A stretch of DNA of 33,058 bases from an uncultured bacterium (GTDB lineage Bacteria > Patescibacteriota > Minisyncoccia > Phycocordibacterales > UBA918): NCBI GenBank assembly GCA_937867625.1, contig CALMKR010000144.1, positions 1 through 33,058 of the forward strand, given 5' to 3'. The notes beneath the pieces were generated by a model. It did no database searches and was not told the origin of the DNA. It saw nothing but the letters and a program-made list of their open reading frames with translations. Shown piece by piece: positions 10,664 through 27,982 of this stretch (its first letter is position 1; the number at the start of each line of letters is the position of its first letter). Made by a program: the position numbers and the translations under genes.

Positions 10664-10972
10664 TTACTTGCATGCCCATTCGCCAGCATACCCGTTTGCA
10701 AAAGCCCATGCGGTAACTTCTGCTTGATGTACTGGGTTGTAAATGTCTCTTACGCCGTACGGTGATCTTCCGCCTATTCTGTTCCATGTCTCTGGTAGAT
10801 ATTGGAATAGTCCTGTTGGATTGCCGCCTCCTGCGTAATAGCCATAGTTTACAGCATTAGGGTTTAATGTGCTTTCACACCTCGCCACTCGTACAAGATA
10901 GTCCTCGCTGATACCATGCTTGCTTGCTGCGTCCCGTACTATCTGCTCTACATTTGTAGGCTGTGGCTGCAC
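10664..10972 (-). CDS. Lytic transglycosylase domain (distal part of a probable frameshift fusion)
   Basis: This encodes a small lysozyme-like/transglycosylase domain: VARCESTLNPNA with the catalytic Glu, GLFQYLPETWNRIGG, then a NPVHQAEVTAWAF helix and a final GEWACK. It resembles Rpf/SLT-type domains that cleave peptidoglycan. The nominal GTG start at 10972 has no ribosome site, and the frame stays open upstream to 11101, reading as a Pro/Glu/Thr linker that enters the 11056-11262 gene in the -1 frame. I infer a fusion product of about 199 residues with an N-terminal membrane anchor. See the 11017-11062 feature. Confidence 0.85.
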   Translation of the reverse strand: MQPQPTNVEQIVRDAASKHGISEDYLVRVARCESTLNPNAVNYGYYAGGGNPTGLFQYLPETWNRIGGRSPYGVRDIYNPVHQAEVTAWAFANGYAGEWACK

Positions 10973-11929: not shown

Positions 11930-12279
11930 TACTCTAGCTTATCTTTGATTTGGTTGATTACTTGTTCCATTTTAACCGTGTAAAACTGAGTGAAGGTGTC
12001 GTACTTCTTCTTGCCTGATTGCTCCCACATAACGTATAGGACGGCTCGGAGGCGCTCAGAGGGTGATTTGCCCATATCGGTGTCAGCGTTAATCTCGGGT
12101 ACTTCTATGTTGCTCTCGGGATTCGGGGTGAAGGTAACATACCCCACTAGCTGTCTGTAGCTGAACAGGGCTGTCATGTCTTCACCGTTTAGCTCCTGTG
12201 TCTCAATACTCAACTTAATAGAGCCGTCTACTCTGGTTTCAATCTTCGCCAGTTGTGCTGGGAATTGTACGGCTTTCAC
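11929..12279 (-). CDS. Hypothetical 116-aa protein following the ERF gene
   Basis: Starts at GTG 12279, sharing a base with the ERF stop (TAGTG). Beta-rich N-terminal half (AKIETRVDGSIKLSIETQEL) and a helical C-terminus (FTQFYTVKMEQVINQIKDKL). In many phages a small partner of this kind follows the annealing protein, so a role in recombination or replication is likely by context only. Confidence 0.7.
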   Translation of the reverse strand: MKAVQFPAQLAKIETRVDGSIKLSIETQELNGEDMTALFSYRQLVGYVTFTPNPESNIEVPEINADTDMGKSPSERLRAVLYVMWEQSGKKKYDTFTQFYTVKMEQVINQIKDKLE

Positions 12280-12878
12280 TACGCCTCGTTCTCTAGCGCA
12301 TCCATCACAAGGTTAGCGTCGTCTATGCTGTCTATAGTCTCCTTGCTTAGTACGCCCTTTATAAATGCTTTCTTACTGTCTACGGTTAAGTAGTCGTGAC
12401 CAACGAGAGTATCGTTAATAACACCCTTAGCTCGCTTTAGTTCATCGGCTTCTGCTTCGTATTGCTCGGCTGCACGATCACGGATGACTGGTGTAGGCTT
12501 TGCCTTCACTTGCTCACCCGCTGCGTCTGCGTCTGCGTCTGTAATCAGTCCGAGCATAGAGCTAAGTGAGTAGCGACGTAGGTATGTGATAGCTGAACCG
12601 AGTACCTGAAAGTCGTTCATCCCTTTAAGCTGTACGCCCTGTGGTATGTCTGCAAACCCTTCGATAGATTCGCCCGACTCTGCGTGGAAGATGATTGTCT
12701 TTACTGTTGTACCGACAAGTGGCTGTGCGTAACCAAGCCCATGCTTTGCAAGTATCGGTTTAATGACATCGTTAATCTCACCGAGGTCTGCAAATGTATA
12801 GCTGTAGCCTTTAGCGTTCTTATAGATGTTTGGTACGTCTTGCTGAAAAGCTGCAAGTGCTTTGTATAGTTCTTTCAT
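12279..12878 (-). CDS. erf: ERF-family single-strand annealing protein
   Basis: A 199-residue recombination protein of the ERF superfamily, which anneals complementary single strands and helps circularise or repair phage DNA. Family hallmarks are the N-terminal LYKALAAFQQDVPNIYKNAK, then YSYTFADLGEINDVIKPILA, and the core MNDFQVLGSAITYLRRYSLS with SSMLGLITDADADA. The C-terminal third is variable and acidic, as usual. Its ATG overlaps the stop of the 30-aa gene (TAATG). Co-transcribed with an HNH nuclease. Confidence 0.95.
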   Translation of the reverse strand: MKELYKALAAFQQDVPNIYKNAKGYSYTFADLGEINDVIKPILAKHGLGYAQPLVGTTVKTIIFHAESGESIEGFADIPQGVQLKGMNDFQVLGSAITYLRRYSLSSMLGLITDADADAAGEQVKAKPTPVIRDRAAEQYEAEADELKRAKGVINDTLVGHDYLTVDSKKAFIKGVLSKETIDSIDDANLVMDALENEA

Positions 12879-14949: not shown

Positions 14950-15007
14950 CAGCAAACTCTATCTCGCCCTGCTGTTCTAGGGACTGTTCAGTGTGATTGT
15001 GTTCCAC
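14939..15007 (-). CDS. 22-aa acidic peptide (tentative)
   Basis: GTG 15007 inside the end of the phosphoesterase gene, with AGGA 7 bases before it, encodes MEHNHTEQSLEQQGEIEFAD and two more residues. It overlaps the next start by 11 bases. It fits the packed gene style, but a peptide this small could be chance. Confidence 0.3.
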   Translation of the reverse strand: MEHNHTEQSLEQQGEIEFADGQ

Positions 15008-16253
15008 CGAAAGTCCTGCCTTGATAGTGAATGACACCGTTATGGATTGGCACTTGGTCGAACTGGTACTTGCCGTCGCCGTAGTCGTAAATTACCATCA
15101 CGCCGTTTTGCCAGTTCTCGTGCCTATGTACAGGTTGGTTTTCACCTACAGATGACCAGTAGCTAGGCACTACGCCGTCAGTCCTACAGAGTGCACCGAC
15201 AACAAAAGCACCAAACTGCTTACCCCTGCGAGTTGTCTGGTAGTGGGACTCGATGGAATGCTTGTGTCCTTGTACGATGTTTCGGTCGTTGTTTACCTTA
15301 GATAGCTTTGCGGCGGTGCTTCCGCCAGATACAGCAAACGTCCCATGTATAAATGCGAGATCTTCCTTGTACTCAAACTCAGCAGCAGGGTAGCCGTCTA
15401 TGTACTCCCAGCCAATCTGGTCAAGTCTGAGTAGTCCTGGGTACGAAAGCGCGGCGTGTTTCTCGCCCACTTGCTTTACATTGTATAGTGCAGGAGCGTT
15501 ACGGAGGACGTAATCTGTTAATCGTTTAACGTGATTGCTTGCAACGGTGACACGGCGTTCTGCGTTAGGAGTAACGGCGGTGAACTCTGCAAAGAGGTCA
15601 TGTGTGCGCTGAAGAGAAGGCTGGAGGGTATGCTGGAAGTGGTCTGAATCGACAGGGTGACGTGATAGCTCCGCAAAGTCAGTCGTGTCTGCACAGTCTA
15701 CTACAAAGTCAGGATTAAGATGCTTTGCGAGTTGTAGGGCTGCATCAATTGATTGTTCGTCGTGTATAGGCACTAGCTCGTCGTCTATGCGCCTGTAGCC
15801 TATCTGAGCGTCTGAGAATACGAACAGGACTTTATGATCTCGTACAACGCCTCTAGCACGGCTAGGACGAATGATAGCTGCTTTGACTGGCTCGACTGAT
15901 AGTGTAGACTCGCCAGCCTTTTTACCAAAGTCTACGTGCGGAAGGGGTTTTGTATACTCAATCTCACCGTCTGCGTTACGAATATACCCTACGTGGAAGC
16001 CAGCTCGGTCTGCTTTTGCTAGGTCGTCTCTGGTAAGATTAATGCCAGCCTCTTTAAACGCCTCGGCAAGTCGGTCTAGTTCGTCTTTTTCTCCTTCGCC
16101 GTTTGGTAGCCGTTCCATAACCTCACCCAGTTTCTTTTTATATCGTTGCTTTGCTCTCATTATGCTGCCTTTAGATTGGTCTGCATATAGTAAAATTAAC
16201 TCGTCAATGTCCTTAGTAAGTAAGTTAGCTAAAGCCGCACCCTGCCATTTCAT
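14988..16253 (-). CDS. Metallophosphoesterase-like protein (421 aa)
   Basis: Two parts: a basic N-terminal helix-turn-helix-like region (residues 1-50, IDELILLYADQSKGSIMRAK) and a calcineurin-type phosphoesterase fold from about 140. Visible metal-site motifs are FSDAQIG (D148, with Q150 where the family has His), VDCADTTDF (D186/D189), VASNHVKR (N240-H241), IHGTF (H303) and QGHKHS (H330, H332). Related proteins are common in phages of Gram-positive hosts and may act on nucleic acids or nucleotides. The altered first motif may change metal use. Starts one base after the 16255 gene's stop. Confidence 0.82.
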   Translation of the reverse strand: MKWQGAALANLLTKDIDELILLYADQSKGSIMRAKQRYKKKLGEVMERLPNGEGEKDELDRLAEAFKEAGINLTRDDLAKADRAGFHVGYIRNADGEIEYTKPLPHVDFGKKAGESTLSVEPVKAAIIRPSRARGVVRDHKVLFVFSDAQIGYRRIDDELVPIHDEQSIDAALQLAKHLNPDFVVDCADTTDFAELSRHPVDSDHFQHTLQPSLQRTHDLFAEFTAVTPNAERRVTVASNHVKRLTDYVLRNAPALYNVKQVGEKHAALSYPGLLRLDQIGWEYIDGYPAAEFEYKEDLAFIHGTFAVSGGSTAAKLSKVNNDRNIVQGHKHSIESHYQTTRRGKQFGAFVVGALCRTDGVVPSYWSSVGENQPVHRHENWQNGVMVIYDYGDGKYQFDQVPIHNGVIHYQGRTFGGTQSH

Positions 16254-17355: not shown

Positions 17356-17622
17356 TTATTGTTTCTTCGAGCTAATCCTGAATGTTTGCTTGAGCGCAAG
17401 CAGTGCCGATACAATAGCCGCGTTGATCGTTACTGCTACAACTCCGTCTAAAACTGAGAATATGGCAAGTAATGTCAGGACAAGTCCCGTAGCTATTGCC
17501 GTAATGTCAGTAGCAAAGTAAGCAATTGTTTTTACTTGGTCGCTAACTATTGGCGTGAAATCACTTGCACTCACGACGCTCTCTGTACCCTTTACAATGT
17601 TTTCCTGGTCTGCGGTTGTCAT
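17356..17622 (-). CDS. Nested holin-like protein from internal start (88 aa)
   Basis: Within the endolysin frame, AAAGGAG followed 8 bases later by ATG 17622 gives MTTADQENIVKGTESVVSAS, then two membrane helices (IAYFATDITAIATGLVLTLL and VAVTINAAIVSALLAL) and a basic end. Size, topology and position match class II-type holins, and the N-terminus resembles those of many actinophage holins. The internal ribosome site is among the strongest in the window, so independent translation is likely. Confidence 0.68.
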   Translation of the reverse strand: MTTADQENIVKGTESVVSASDFTPIVSDQVKTIAYFATDITAIATGLVLTLLAIFSVLDGVVAVTINAAIVSALLALKQTFRISSKKQ

Positions 17623-18471
17623 GTGGTTTTTCTCCTTTACTTCTTTCTCAATAGCGGCTAGTTCGGCTGCTTTTTTTTCAGCTGCCTCTTTAGCTAGTCG
17701 TTCTTCTTCTTTGATGCGGGCGATCTCGGCCTCAGCAGCAAGACGCTCTGCCTCTGCCTTCTTGTAAGCTTCCTCAGCGGCTTTAATCTCTTTAGCCTTC
17801 TCAGCATCGGCTAAAGCCTTTGCAGCGTCTTCCGCGGCTTTCTGTGCGGCTAAACGAGCAGCCTCGGCTTTACGGGCATCTAGTAATCGTTTTTCCTGTG
17901 AGTTAGCAAGCCCAGACTGCACTGCTTCAATCGGGTACTTCATCCAGTTAGCTATACCAGTTTCGTCTACGCCAGACGGGTCGCGTTCGAGTATGGCTTT
18001 GTACTCAGCAATTACCTGAGCGCGAGTGGCTGTTTTTACTGTGTCAATGTACGGCATGGGGTTAATACGTCCAGCGTAGCCATTTGAGAAGTTAGGACTG
18101 AGTGGTAGCATTTCAAAGTGTAGGTGTGGACCAGTTGCCGCGCCAGTTGCGCCAACGTAGCCAATGAGCTGCCCTTTTGCGACTTTTTGCCCCTTGTTTA
18201 CTACGGTGCTTGATAGGTGAGCGTAACCCCCGTATGAACCAATGTGGTTGATGAGTACGCATATACCAGCTGGTGTTCCCATCCAAGAATGGTTTTGTCC
18301 CCAGCCTTCAAATGTTACTGTACCTTCGTCTGCTGCATAAACTGGTGTGCCAGCACTTGCACCAAGGTCGATGCCGTTGTGTCCGATTTGACCAAACTGC
18401 CTGTAGTATTCGGGGCTTGCCCCAAACTCGCCTGTTATTCTTACGTTATCGAGTGGCCATCTAAATGACAT
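17356..18471 (-). CDS. M23 peptidase endolysin with C-terminal holin-like tail (371 aa)
   Basis: The N-terminal M23 zinc endopeptidase (residues about 1-135) has HNGID (H31, D35), YAHL (H85) and PHLHFE (H116, H118), the ligands that cleave peptidoglycan cross-bridges. Residues about 145-195 resemble DUF4214-type segments (AILERDPSGVDETGIANW). An Ala/Lys/Glu helix like TolA follows (about 200-280), then two membrane helices (about 314-362). This joins endolysin and membrane pore in one chain. AGGAG precedes ATG 18471. An internal start at 17622 can yield the tail alone. Confidence 0.9.
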   Translation of the reverse strand: MSFRWPLDNVRITGEFGASPEYYRQFGQIGHNGIDLGASAGTPVYAADEGTVTFEGWGQNHSWMGTPAGICVLINHIGSYGGYAHLSSTVVNKGQKVAKGQLIGYVGATGAATGPHLHFEMLPLSPNFSNGYAGRINPMPYIDTVKTATRAQVIAEYKAILERDPSGVDETGIANWMKYPIEAVQSGLANSQEKRLLDARKAEAARLAAQKAAEDAAKALADAEKAKEIKAAEEAYKKAEAERLAAEAEIARIKEEERLAKEAAEKKAAELAAIEKEVKEKNHMTTADQENIVKGTESVVSASDFTPIVSDQVKTIAYFATDITAIATGLVLTLLAIFSVLDGVVAVTINAAIVSALLALKQTFRISSKKQ

Positions 18472-18482
18472 TGTTTACTCCT

Positions 18483-18746
18483 TTACTGGTTATTACCAAG
18501 TGTGAATACAAGCTTTATAACCGCCCACATCGTGCCGAGAAGCACGCCAATGCCGCCAGCAATCACAACTATTCTTCGGCCAAGCTTTGCAAACCTTTTG
18601 TTAAACTCTTCTGCTTGCTTGCGGTCTTCGACAAGCTGCTTAATATCTGGGACAATTCCAACTAGCTCGTTTAGAGATGAAAGCCCATCCAATGTAGTTA
18701 TAATGGTTTCGAGTTGCTCTTTAGTTGTGGGAGGTTTAGTTGCCAT
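18483..18746 (-). CDS. Small membrane protein with C-terminal anchor (87 aa)
   Basis: A soluble helical N-terminal 55 residues (KEQLETIITTLDGLSSLNEL) ends in one membrane helix (about residues 58-82, IVVIAGGIGVLLGTMWAVIK). Directly upstream of the endolysin gene, it is probably a holin partner, anti-holin or spanin-like lysis regulator. Similar layouts occur in lysis cassettes, but the family is not certain. Confidence 0.68.
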   Translation of the reverse strand: MATKPPTTKEQLETIITTLDGLSSLNELVGIVPDIKQLVEDRKQAEEFNKRFAKLGRRIVVIAGGIGVLLGTMWAVIKLVFTLGNNQ

Positions 18747-22978: not shown

Positions 22979-25900
22979 TTATACTCCTTTTATAGTTGCT
23001 TCTTCAATAAGTTTTCTTAAATTACCTGAAACTTGACCAGATACGTCACCAAATGCGTTTAGCTTGTAGTTTTTCTTAGCAGCTTTTCTGCCAGTTGATG
23101 ACTTGGTTGTTTTCTTTGCTGTAGTCTTTTTGGCTTTCGCTTCTTCTTTGGCTGCCTGTTTTTGTTCTTCGGTTAGTTCAATACCATCAAAGTAATCTAC
23201 AGGCTCACCTGCTAGGTATGCTTTTTGTCGAGCTGTAAGTTTTACCTCAGTTAGTTCCGATTTCACGGCACCATAGGCTGTATCATTTGCACGAGTTAAT
23301 ACAGTCTTTTTATCTTCAGCAGACAACATTGCATAACGTGGGTCTTCCATAACTTTTTTCCACTCAGTGGACACTTGTTTTGCAACTTTCTTATTGAGTT
23401 CGAGCATTTGTTTATCATCTAGGAGTGAATCACCGTTAGCGTCTTTGAATGTACTCTTGGTTGCTTGCGTTGGCGTAATACCCTCACCTTGGTCTTGTAG
23501 TGAGCGAAGTTCTGCTGTCATTGGGTTAGTTGCTGTAAGGTCTTTAGACGGCTTGAATGGGTTTATTATCTCGTCAATCATACTGCCTCGTCGTGGGACT
23601 TCATCACCGTAAATGTTTGTTTTAGCTGGCAGTGTTTGGCGTAGACCAGGAATACCAGCAGTTACAGCGTCACCTATACCGTTCATCTCACGCTGTACAG
23701 GGTCGGTTGCACGAGCAGCCGTTCGAACGATGTTAGGTACAACACTACCTGCTGTTTGTTCTGCAAACTTCTCTGCGCTTCGTGTAGGGTCTGTAAGGGC
23801 GTTGATACCACCTGATACACCCTTTAAGAATGACTGCTCTGTAAACGCTTTGCCTGCACCTGCAAGGGCATTTGCATAAGCTGTTTCAGGGTCTTCACCC
23901 TCATTTATAGCGTTTTGGTATTCTGCACCTGCTGCGAGTAAGTTTCCTGCTGGTTGGAAATAGTTGGTAGATAACCATTGATCGCCCACTTTTATAGAAT
24001 AAGGTTGTTTGCCTTCTGCTTCCCATAGATCACGTTCTTTTTTCTCTGTAGGATAGCCAAGTGTCATAGCACCAGAGTTAGCAAGTGCTACACCTGCGCC
24101 AACAAGAGGAATAACCATTGAACCGTTAGCAATAGCCTGTGTCATAGCACGTTGGTCAAACTTCTTAGCTTTAATCTGTTTAACAATCTCCGTAGCCCAT
24201 CCAATAGGTGTTCGTTCAATCATACGAGTTGCGATAGATGATGGGACTCCTGAGAATGGTATGAGGAACTCTGCAATGTCTGCACCAATGCCAGTACCGC
24301 TTTTAAGTTGTGAGGCTCGTCGTCCTAGCTCTGTTTCGTTTTGGAATACAGCATATCGTGCTTCTTTATCTGCTAAGTCCATAGCTTTTGTTTGTGGCTC
24401 GGTAATAAACTGTTTTACAAAGTCTGATTTTGCGCTACCCTTTAGCTTTTGGCGTGAAGCCTCTGTAAGTGCTTGATCGTATAGTGAATTACGAAGTGCT
24501 GCATAGTAAAACGGTTGGTCTTGTGCGCCCATAGTTCTAAATACTGCCTGTGTATAGACTTCAGCAGCTTTACCAAGTGGTTTGTCTGAGTAGTTAATGT
24601 TTCGGACATCGAATTTCTGACTAGGGTTACGTGGGTCATAGCCTGTCTTAAAGTATTTAATACCCTTAACGATTCCCTCACCAGTACCAGACGCAGTTCC
24701 TCTAAGTGTGTACTTACGGCTTCTCTGTCCAGTAAAGAAGAATGCTGTAGCAGCGTCAAGTATGTTAGCAAGTGGGTCTACATAACCTTTTCTAAGAATT
24801 GCCTCAACGATGTTGGCTACTAAGTTTCCTGCGGTAGTACGAGGTGAAGTTAAAAGTCCAGCTTTCCATACTTGTAGTATTTGGCTCATCTTCCTTTGAG
24901 GTAATTGCTTAGCAACGTATTGCATAAGATTATTTCGGGCAAGACCATTTTCGTATGAACCAGCGTCCGTCTTTTTAACCTGTTGAATAAAACTATCGAT
25001 CTTCTTGGTCATTTCAGGGGTAATAGTAACACCCTCTTTTTTGAGTGACTTAATAGCAGAAAAGCGTAAGCCCTCTGGTGTACGGTTTCCAAGGAGTGAA
25101 GCCGCTTGTACCAACTGACCAGCTTTTGAGAACTTCTCCGCTAGTTGTTCGTATATCTCGGTTGCCTCTTGAAGGCTCTTCGTGGTACTGCGAGCGTCTA
25201 GGCGTTTAGCAACTGCGATAGCGTCTGAGGCTGTCTGGTCGTCGATCTTGTCTGCGATCAAGCGGTCTTTAATGTCAGTAGTCGCTTCTTTAAGACTTCG
25301 TGACTTTAAGAACTTATCAGACTGAAATAGTCGTTGCTCATCGGTAACAGTAGTGTATGAACCTTCTTTACCACGCATAGCAGTTCTGAGTTTGTCGCTC
25401 GTTTCGGCTGAACCCTTAACAGTACGTGTAAACTTCGTCTTTGCCTGTCGTGGTGCTGTAATACCTGCTGCCTCTAAGTCTGCGACAATCTGGTTCTCCC
25501 TTTGTAGTGCGAGGGGTTCGTCAATGTATAGTCCACTCTCTGGGTCTGTGCGTGAGATAACTTCTGCACGTTTCTGTATATCTGGGCTATTACGTAACTC
25601 TGTGATTTTCTTGCCTTGTTCTCGTGATGAGGATCGTGCGTCGAGTTCTCTCTTAACGACATCTAGCATGTCTTCACTTGTCATAGTAAGTTGACCGTCA
25701 ACTCTGTTGCCCTCAAATTCTGCTGCAATATCGTCTAATGCCCTGCCGTCTTTTTCAGATAAGTAGCGAGGTGGTATGCCAGACTCACGAGCAGATAGAC
25801 CTGTTACTTCTTTAATACTACTCGGTTTAATCTTTGGTATACCTGCCTCAAACGCACCTGTACTGCCTGATTCAAATAGCAGTGGGTCTGTTTCGTATAC

Positions 25901-27982
25901 TGCTTGGTCTACGGCTTCACGCATCGCTTTGCTTTGTTTTCGGTATGGCGTTAGTCCAGCAGCTTCTAGGTCTGCTTCAAAGGCTGATTTTTGGGTAGTT
26001 GGTTGTTTAGGTGTCTTAGTTACTTGTGGGGCTGAAGCCTCAATATCAAACACAACTAGCTGGTCGTTTGTACCACTAGACGCATCTGCAACTGTCTTTT
26101 TTATTATTATGCCGTCATGCCCTTGTTGCTTTAGGCTATCGGCAAATGCCTTCTTGTTATCAAACTTATCAGCTTCGTACTGGAACACATCGTAACTATC
26201 TTTGAGTTTTATCTTCTCTTCTTTTAATGCGCCGTTAAGTTGGTCTATTTTGTTGGTAAACTCTCTGTCTGTTTGCCAAGAGTAGCCTGATGGGTTGTTG
26301 TTTATTGTTGCATCTTTATACTGTTTTCTCTGTAGCTCTGTTTCTTTAATTTGGTTTTCTATACTTTCAATGTTGCTTCTAACCTGTTTTGCTTGGCTAG
26401 GACTTAACGGTTCGTAGATTTTTGGATTATTTAGTTTTGGTGTAGCTTCAATGACTCTGCCTGTTTTTGACTCTGGATTATTTTTATAGATACTTTCGTA
26501 TGTGAACTTGTCCGCTACGTTTCTGTCGCTACTAAACCAAGTGCCAATACCAGCATTTCTATTTTCTGAGTAGCTAGTCTGATTGTTTTTTAGTGTATCA
26601 AACTTTCTCGGTGTTCCGTGATACCACATCTGGCCTTCTGCTTTACCCCCTGGTACTTGTATAGAACCACGCTCTAGTATTCTGCGTCGTTCGGTATTAA
26701 GTTGTGCGATACCTTGGTTGATCTGTTCACGGCGAGTAGGGTTGGTCTCTACGTCAAAAGCTCTCTTGTAGTTATCAAGAGTTTCGTTTATCTGTGCAAG
26801 TTGTGGGTTGATGTTTTCTACTGCACGAGCTACGTTTTTAGCGCCAGTAGTGGTTGCATCGCCTATAACTTGTCCAGCCTTAATAGTCGCAGGAATAGCA
26901 GCGCCCGTTACAGCTCCGATTGCCGCACCAGTGCCGATACCTGAAGCATAGTCTTGAAGAGTGGCGTCTGCGCCCATCTGTTCTGCCGTACCAGCTCCAC
27001 CGTATGCTGCACCGAGGGTGCTACCTGATACAGCGCCCTGTCTGATTGTCTGTGGGTTAAGCACGGTATTAGTAAAGTTGACAAGCTTAGAGCCTGCCGT
27101 TGCCGTCTGTCCGCCCTTAACTGCTGCACCCACTAGCTTGCTTCCAGCACCAGCGGTAACTACGTCTAGTCCAATGCTTGCTACTGCGCCAGCTGCTTTA
27201 GTGGGGTCTGTACGTTCTGCTACCTGAGTCTGAGTAGCTTCCTGTTGCGCTGATAGGAGGTCGCTCTGTGCTGCTATGTTTGAGATAGCCTGCTTGTAGC
27301 GCTCTTTTGCCACAGGGTCGGCTGTTTTATTCATGTTATCAGTAAGGTTACGAACAGTCTCCGCTACGCCCTGTTGGTAGTCGGCCTGAGCCTTGTCTGC
27401 CTCGCCCTGAACTCCTGCACCGAACACTTCGCCAAAGCCCTCACCGATACGCTTATAGGCTGATGGGGCTGCTGCTACAGCGTCCTGTGCAAAGGTAAGT
27501 GGATTACCGCCCTGCTTCTTGCCGTATGTTTCAATGTTGGCTAGCTGTTGTTGCGCCCAGTCTCGGTTTTTTATATCTTCCTGAGAGTTGAACTTCGTGC
27601 GTCCAGCAAGCCCCTGTAAATCTGCGATGCGCTGTCTCTGTGAGTATACGTCAGAGGTATTAAACTTAGTCACCTCTGGGTCTTTAGTCTCGAAGTACTG
27701 TTTAGTGAGTACGTCTTGATCGAACTTGCTACCACCTGCTGCAAGGTTGCCACGTACTGCGTCTACTTGATTACCTGTCCCTTTTGAGAACTCTTCAATA
27801 GTGATCTTTTGGTTACCGTTATAGAAGTCTGTACCACCGTCTGAGCGTTTCTGTTGGCGGTATGGAGACGTAGAAGCAGGAGCTACAGATTGCTGTGCTG
27901 GCTGAGTAGACGCAACATAAACAGGCTGCTTATACGTCTTGAGTTCTTCTCTGAGGTCTTTTGGATTGAGGCTGTATGCCAT
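22979..27982 (-). CDS. Giant internal virion / polyvalent protein with ART-like domain (1667 aa)
   Basis: The N-terminal 450 residues are Gln/Ala/Gly-rich, with long Gly-Ala segments that could insert in membranes (about 265-380). Residues about 452-650 resemble a mono-ADP-ribosyltransferase of polyvalent proteins: MWYHGTPRKFD, GIGTWFSSDRNVADKF and, at the end, GHDGIIIKK...QLVVFDIEA. Near 737 lies ESGIPPRYLSEKDG, a pattern seen in other large phage polyvalent proteins. Residues about 1040-1420 (SPRTTAGNLVANIV; FLIPFSGVPSSIATRM) match the helical internal region of ejected virion proteins. A Lys-rich segment (about 1610-1640) follows. Likely ejected with DNA and able to modify a host target. 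Confidence 0.84.
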   Translation of the reverse strand: MAYSLNPKDLREELKTYKQPVYVASTQPAQQSVAPASTSPYRQQKRSDGGTDFYNGNQKITIEEFSKGTGNQVDAVRGNLAAGGSKFDQDVLTKQYFETKDPEVTKFNTSDVYSQRQRIADLQGLAGRTKFNSQEDIKNRDWAQQQLANIETYGKKQGGNPLTFAQDAVAAAPSAYKRIGEGFGEVFGAGVQGEADKAQADYQQGVAETVRNLTDNMNKTADPVAKERYKQAISNIAAQSDLLSAQQEATQTQVAERTDPTKAAGAVASIGLDVVTAGAGSKLVGAAVKGGQTATAGSKLVNFTNTVLNPQTIRQGAVSGSTLGAAYGGAGTAEQMGADATLQDYASGIGTGAAIGAVTGAAIPATIKAGQVIGDATTTGAKNVARAVENINPQLAQINETLDNYKRAFDVETNPTRREQINQGIAQLNTERRRILERGSIQVPGGKAEGQMWYHGTPRKFDTLKNNQTSYSENRNAGIGTWFSSDRNVADKFTYESIYKNNPESKTGRVIEATPKLNNPKIYEPLSPSQAKQVRSNIESIENQIKETELQRKQYKDATINNNPSGYSWQTDREFTNKIDQLNGALKEEKIKLKDSYDVFQYEADKFDNKKAFADSLKQQGHDGIIIKKTVADASSGTNDQLVVFDIEASAPQVTKTPKQPTTQKSAFEADLEAAGLTPYRKQSKAMREAVDQAVYETDPLLFESGSTGAFEAGIPKIKPSSIKEVTGLSARESGIPPRYLSEKDGRALDDIAAEFEGNRVDGQLTMTSEDMLDVVKRELDARSSSREQGKKITELRNSPDIQKRAEVISRTDPESGLYIDEPLALQRENQIVADLEAAGITAPRQAKTKFTRTVKGSAETSDKLRTAMRGKEGSYTTVTDEQRLFQSDKFLKSRSLKEATTDIKDRLIADKIDDQTASDAIAVAKRLDARSTTKSLQEATEIYEQLAEKFSKAGQLVQAASLLGNRTPEGLRFSAIKSLKKEGVTITPEMTKKIDSFIQQVKKTDAGSYENGLARNNLMQYVAKQLPQRKMSQILQVWKAGLLTSPRTTAGNLVANIVEAILRKGYVDPLANILDAATAFFFTGQRSRKYTLRGTASGTGEGIVKGIKYFKTGYDPRNPSQKFDVRNINYSDKPLGKAAEVYTQAVFRTMGAQDQPFYYAALRNSLYDQALTEASRQKLKGSAKSDFVKQFITEPQTKAMDLADKEARYAVFQNETELGRRASQLKSGTGIGADIAEFLIPFSGVPSSIATRMIERTPIGWATEIVKQIKAKKFDQRAMTQAIANGSMVIPLVGAGVALANSGAMTLGYPTEKKERDLWEAEGKQPYSIKVGDQWLSTNYFQPAGNLLAAGAEYQNAINEGEDPETAYANALAGAGKAFTEQSFLKGVSGGINALTDPTRSAEKFAEQTAGSVVPNIVRTAARATDPVQREMNGIGDAVTAGIPGLRQTLPAKTNIYGDEVPRRGSMIDEIINPFKPSKDLTATNPMTAELRSLQDQGEGITPTQATKSTFKDANGDSLLDDKQMLELNKKVAKQVSTEWKKVMEDPRYAMLSAEDKKTVLTRANDTAYGAVKSELTEVKLTARQKAYLAGEPVDYFDGIELTEEQKQAAKEEAKAKKTTAKKTTKSSTGRKAAKKNYKLNAFGDVSGQVSGNLRKLIEEATIKGV

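Follow-up and report, generated by a model that had tools for sequence, protein, structure and literature searches.

To lyse a cell, a phage needs a wall enzyme and a hole-former that acts at a set time, and these are usually encoded separately. Some endolysin genes contain internal translation starts (types I and II). Examples are Ply2638A, Ms6 LysA, CTP1L and Lys170 (PMC12203907, PMC3111421). In these, one gene with an in-frame internal ribosome binding site (RBS) and start codon yields two isoforms that share a C-terminus. The shorter of the two is either a wall-binding domain or an enzyme/binding module. Other endolysins, namely Enc34 ORF39, M4Lys and LysAP, have an N-terminal catalytic domain, C-terminal membrane helices and no N-terminal signal (PMC8943055, PMC7143992, PMC8879335). 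A natural fusion of holin and endolysin, the TpeE type of Clostridium sporogenes, has been suggested to bring its enzyme across by itself (PMC9527704). In this fusion, a holin with one transmembrane (TM) helix comes first and no free holin is made from the gene. F1 mycobacteriophages encode a two-protein lysis membrane set of the kind found in actinobacteriophages. LysF1a, an 88-amino acid protein with two TM helices and N-in/C-in topology, works with the 1-TM partner LysF1b; the genes are separate and neither is fused to an endolysin (PMC13056207). Finally, in the dual-start holin S of phage lambda, two in-frame start codons give two products that together time lysis (PMC9671378); the starts are two codons apart. 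Hence, internal-start endolysins, C-terminal-TM endolysins and a fusion in the reverse order are each known. Their combination, as predicted for the gene described below, is a new arrangement. We found no description, in the open-licence literature searched, of an endolysin-holin fusion with the holin also made separately via an internal start.

The gene is part of a 33,058 nucleotide stretch of DNA, hereafter the window. It was originally predicted to encode an M23 enzyme that continues through a TolA-like helix into a two-helix holin-like tail, all in one open reading frame (ORF). PF01551, AlphaFold2 and hydropathy confirmed this layout. The relevant features are listed below.

17356 to 18471, minus strand: whole gene, stop codon included, a 371-amino acid fusion of M23 endolysin, helix and two TM helices (ORF reading, PF01551, AlphaFold2).
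18483 to 18746, minus strand: gene upstream of the M23 gene, for an 87-amino acid protein with one C-terminal TM helix.
18478 to 18484, minus strand: Shine-Dalgarno (SD) motif AAAGGAG of the full-length start, with a 6 nt spacer (sequence).
18043 to 18471, minus strand: zoocin A-like M23 peptidase domain, residues 1-143 (PF01551; zoocin A 5kvp; HxxxD and HxH zinc motifs).
17902 to 18042, minus strand: small helical region, residues 144-190, faintly DUF4214-like (model and sequence alignment).
17626 to 17898, minus strand: single long helix, residues 192-282, about 91 residues and about 13-14 nm if straight (AlphaFold2).
17632 to 17638, minus strand: internal SD-like AAAGGAG, 9 nt before the internal ATG (sequence).
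17620 to 17622, minus strand: internal in-frame ATG, Met284, in the context ATGACAACC (MTT), like the separate holin genes of relatives (sequence).
17356 to 17622, minus strand: predicted free holin from the internal start, 88 amino acids, two TM helices (topology; positional equivalents are PHROG holins).
17458 to 17541, minus strand: TM helix 1, model residues 311-338 (hydropathy and AlphaFold2).
17362 to 17439, minus strand: TM helix 2, model residues 345-370, ending in basic RISSKKQ (hydropathy and AlphaFold2).

The ORF runs uninterrupted from ATG to stop. PF01551 (Peptidase_M23) matches residues 31-121 (E = 4.6e-26) and the nearest solved structure, by sequence, is the zoocin A endopeptidase (5kvp, E = 1.6e-34). 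With its zinc motifs H31xxxD35 and H116xH118, the ligands of which are invariant in an alignment of seven sequences, the 371-amino acid product belongs to the M23 class. No hydrophobic signal was seen at the enzyme N-terminus. As for the small helical region, a DUF4214 match (E = 0.019) belongs to one relative, L108, and not to the window gene. From the AlphaFold2 model (pTM 0.30, M23 part poor) we used helix boundaries alone. The long Ala/Lys/Glu helix is continuous (block pLDDT mostly 83-90) and is followed by a flexible stretch and then the helical hairpin. Hydropathy agrees with the model, indicating two membrane helices and a basic C-terminus. By the positive-inside rule, this suggests an N-in/C-in tail with a cytoplasmic C-terminus.

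Compared with the described systems, the fusion shares the general layout of Enc34 ORF39, M4Lys and LysAP. The likeness is in how the proteins would work only; their catalytic domains (PHA02564 in the Enc34/M4Lys type) are unrelated to M23, their hosts are Gram-negative and they have a separate holin gene. Relative to the TpeE type, it has enzyme and membrane part in the opposite order, and a 2-TM hairpin in place of the 1-TM holin.

The M23 gene sits past putative tail genes (weak tail-fibre matches) and beside the 1-TM gene. The product of the latter is probably a second lysis membrane protein and is a holin/XhlA-like candidate. Its sole match, to a PHROG 'holin', is weak (E = 0.43). Further away, at 10664-10972 (minus strand), the window encodes a 102-amino acid SLT-type lytic transglycosylase (PF01464, 1.4e-10), a possible second wall enzyme.

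The original prediction also placed AAAGGAG 8 bases before an in-frame ATG at 17622. Motif and start codon are present, and the spacer (AAAAACCAC) is 9 nt by our count. The ATG lies at the boundary between helix and tail as proposed, Met284 being two residues past the end of the modelled helix. Hence, as in endolysins with internal starts, an in-frame RBS and start codon (AAAGGAG-N9-ATG) stand between domains. In this case, the short form would be a membrane holin. For comparison, no SD-like motif was seen before in-frame start codons near the TM domain of the Enc34 endolysin gene.

We scored SD motifs by duplex energy with the canonical anti-SD; the internal site scores -8.7 kcal/mol vs -8.2 kcal/mol for the M23 gene's own start. 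In the window, 5 of 29 gene starts reach this strength. An equally strong motif stands before three of the 110 in-frame internal ATGs of its genes, counting the internal site itself and an ATG that is codon 2 of its gene. AAGGA, AGGAG and GGAGG occur nowhere else in the M23 gene, in any frame, and its four other Lys-Glu pairs are spelled AAAGAG or AAAGAA, which are not SD-like. Folding is weak at the internal start context (-4.8 vs -8.8 kcal/mol at the M23 start). On synonymous shuffling, an equally strong site precedes the internal ATG in 15% of shuffles (p = 0.15) because the Lys-Glu-rich coil readily spells AAGGAG. The internal motif, on its own, is thus only suggestive. It is the comparison with relatives, not the motif alone, that makes a functional internal start convincing as a prediction.

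That Lys-Glu codons reach such SD strength by chance fits an alternative in which the gene makes a tethered endolysin only. The tail would be a membrane anchor or export element, and the internal AAAGGAG-ATG a little-used relic of the former holin start. Endolysins with C-terminal TM helices that require the TM domain for lysis do exist (PMC8943055, PMC7143992, PMC8879335). Furthermore, a 1-TM gene stands before the enzyme gene and could encode the holin. The 1-TM product could otherwise assist in lysis, like the 1-TM partner of LysF1a in F1 mycobacteriophages. A similar gene precedes the M23 gene in three relatives (L002, L004 and L107).

Relatives were collected from viral contigs using the enzyme signature FEGWGQN, yielding seven other phage-type members. 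One (L002) is fused. In the other six (L003, L004, L005, L107, L108 and L109) a 2-TM protein of 66-94 amino acids is encoded by a separate gene directly downstream, after the end of the enzyme gene. The 2-TM start overlaps the enzyme stop in four (ATGA in L005; TAATG in L107, L108 and L109). The gap is 12 nt in L004 and about 95 nt in L003. An SD-like motif precedes the 2-TM gene in the five closest-spaced of the six. The 2-TM products, including both internal ones, begin M-(T/A/S)-T in 7 of 8 cases, the exception being L003 (MTP). Examples of these start contexts are ATGACAACC, ATGGCAACC, ATGACGACT and ATGTCAACA.

The unfused relatives also bear on the identity of the tail. Its 88-amino acid form has two hydrophobic helices and a C-terminal charge of +4, which is the size and topology of a class II holin. 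In length, TM number and predicted orientation it is like LysF1a. The window tail itself matched no family significantly. The 2-TM products of L004 (2.7e-11), L107 (3.8e-07) and L108 (1.5e-13) match PHROG 9284, 'holin' (phrog_9284). On the basis of position, size, topology and the label of these three positional equivalents, we predict that the tail is a holin.

The 88-amino acid form might instead be a partner subunit of the full-length protein, acting as a helper or antiholin-like delayer and having no independent holin role. Assembly of short endolysin isoforms with the full-length protein has precedent (PMC12203907), and here both forms have the hairpin in common. However, the short forms of known type II endolysins are wall-binding domains rather than TM hairpins, and the equivalent element is a stand-alone gene in relatives, three times labelled holin. 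We regard a partner role of this kind as improbable and retain a free holin as the predicted product.

The fused relative L002 (IMGVR_UViG_2868257651) is 376 amino acids long and 56% identical to the window gene over its full length (1-371). At the same boundary between helix and tail it has AAGGAGG-N5-ATG. The original prediction called for homologues to keep the internal ribosome site; L002, the sole other fused homologue, has a stronger one. The energy is -11.7 kcal/mol vs -4.0 kcal/mol at its own M23 start, and no start among the 35 genes scored in 40 kb of the contig is as strong (best -10.2 kcal/mol). Synonymous shuffling gave p = 0.11, and the shuffle evidence of the two genes is modest even when combined. 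In L002, the M23 start itself is preceded by little SD. Just upstream is a 14-codon ORF (L227, 4399 to 4353, minus strand) that follows AAGGAGG and ends TAAT directly before the start, possibly a translational coupling leader.

The window gene and L002 are most alike in the M23 domain (79% identity) and the coil (65%), and identity falls to 28-29% over the linker and everything after it. In a MAFFT pairwise alignment of the linker before the internal Met, 4 of 14 positions are identical, the KE dipeptide is aligned and the Met is shifted by a single residue. Since the dipeptide that spells the SD aligns and the Met does not, we cannot wholly tell conservation of the RBS from that of the peptide. 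Beyond the lysis gene, the window and L002 share an ERF gene only (39%; compared over two pieces that total 40 kb of the 43 kb L002 contig). Hence, the fused gene resides in two different phages. The window copy of the ERF gene (12279-12878, minus strand) encodes a single-strand annealing protein (PF04404, 5.7e-23).

The frame and the internal start have thus been kept in two phages despite a strongly diverged tail. Coming from two sequences, this is support for internal initiation and not proof. A relic would be expected to decay given such divergence. Instead, the M-x-T start context is kept and the internal RBS outranks the gene's own in both fusions, being the strongest scored start in L002. 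A tethered endolysin with no free holin is, in our judgement, unlikely.

Additional fused homologues were sought in viral contigs, phage records and plasmids, in 397 genomes of the bin's order and in 396 genomes of an actinobacterial phylum; none besides L002 was found. Similarly, 2 of 142 M23-like ORFs in the loci analysed have both a 2-TM hairpin end and a strong internal start, and these are the window gene and L002.

Since relatives without the fusion exist, an assembly or sequencing error could have joined two genes that are separate in the real phage, for example at the A8 homopolymer (17672-17679, minus strand) within the coil. We consider this very improbable. L002 comes from another contig, lacks such a run and is still fused. 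Moreover, downstream of the run the window frame still encodes coil as far as the internal Met, and this part can be aligned with L002. The run itself has the context A AAA AAA, and slippage would truncate the protein ahead of the tail; both shifted frames hit stops within about a dozen codons. Programmed slippage that releases a free endolysin was considered and dropped because L002 has no such run.

Internal initiation driven by an SD presupposes an anti-SD in the host, which makes the identity of the host important. The bin holding the window contig is 1.68 Mb in 309 contigs with 6.87% contamination, and same-genus relatives are mostly 0.6-1.1 Mb. Its two 16S genes (G000:C228, L199; G000:C77, L200) end ...GUGGAUUAAUUC, i.e. 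GGAUUAAUUC(A)AUUG, so that the canonical CCUCC anti-SD is absent. SD motifs were found at 7 of 15 starts on the window contig vs 5 of 39 on sampled bin contigs, and at 1 of 30 in loci of related genomes. Genes for the nucleoid protein Lsr2 (PF11774) lie directly downstream of the lysis genes in L002 (6228-6599) and L003 (6360-6704). Lsr2 is typical of Actinomycetota, and these genes point to actinobacterial hosts for the two relatives. The closest named phage enzymes come from Arthrobacter phages. The window may belong to a phage that was binned wrongly and infects some other, perhaps actinobacterial, host.

Two other window genes were noted. The first (14988-16253, minus strand) encodes a metallo-phosphoesterase-type protein (phrog_20266, 2.8e-43). 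The second (22979-27982, minus strand), amid structural genes, encodes a 1667-amino acid protein with no Pfam match at 0.01. By eye, a stretch starting MWYHGTP resembles the ADP-ribosyltransferase-like domains of phage polyvalent proteins.

We think it probable that the fused gene arose from an overlapping gene pair, kept the ancestral holin start and makes both a tethered endolysin and a free 88-amino acid holin. Adjacent endolysin and holin genes with a stop/start overlap would have merged via a small frame-changing indel, the ribosome site of the holin surviving within the fusion. Initiation at 18471 would then yield the 371-amino acid endolysin, with a cytoplasmic M23 domain on a helix of about 13 nm anchored by the 2-TM hairpin. 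Initiation at 17622 would yield the bare hairpin as a class II-like (2 TM, N-in/C-in) holin. Having the hairpin in common, free holin and fused subunits could mix in the membrane. As the holin assemblies open, the tethered enzyme would already be at the rim, with the long helix giving reach to the wall, and need not diffuse from the cytoplasm.

The original prediction further likened the gene to a compact lysis clock, with the two products made in different amounts. Bulky fused subunits may dilute or hinder bare copies and so slow assembly, and the ratio of the two starts could, hypothetically, tune the time of lysis. Like lambda S, the gene would have two in-frame starts; those of S are two codons apart, whereas here 283 codons and the whole enzyme separate them. 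The full version of this idea, with a pore that carries its own endolysin on arms of about 13 nm, the two-site ratio as lysis timer and the fused form as built-in antiholin, is a tentative model that we consider doubtful.

If our interpretation is true, the gene would be an example of coupled genes becoming a dual-product gene, in which the endolysin is a fixed passenger of the hole. It would also provide a clean test case for a start ratio that sets lysis time. Naming the ORF 'M23 peptidase' alone would overlook the likely holin of this phage.
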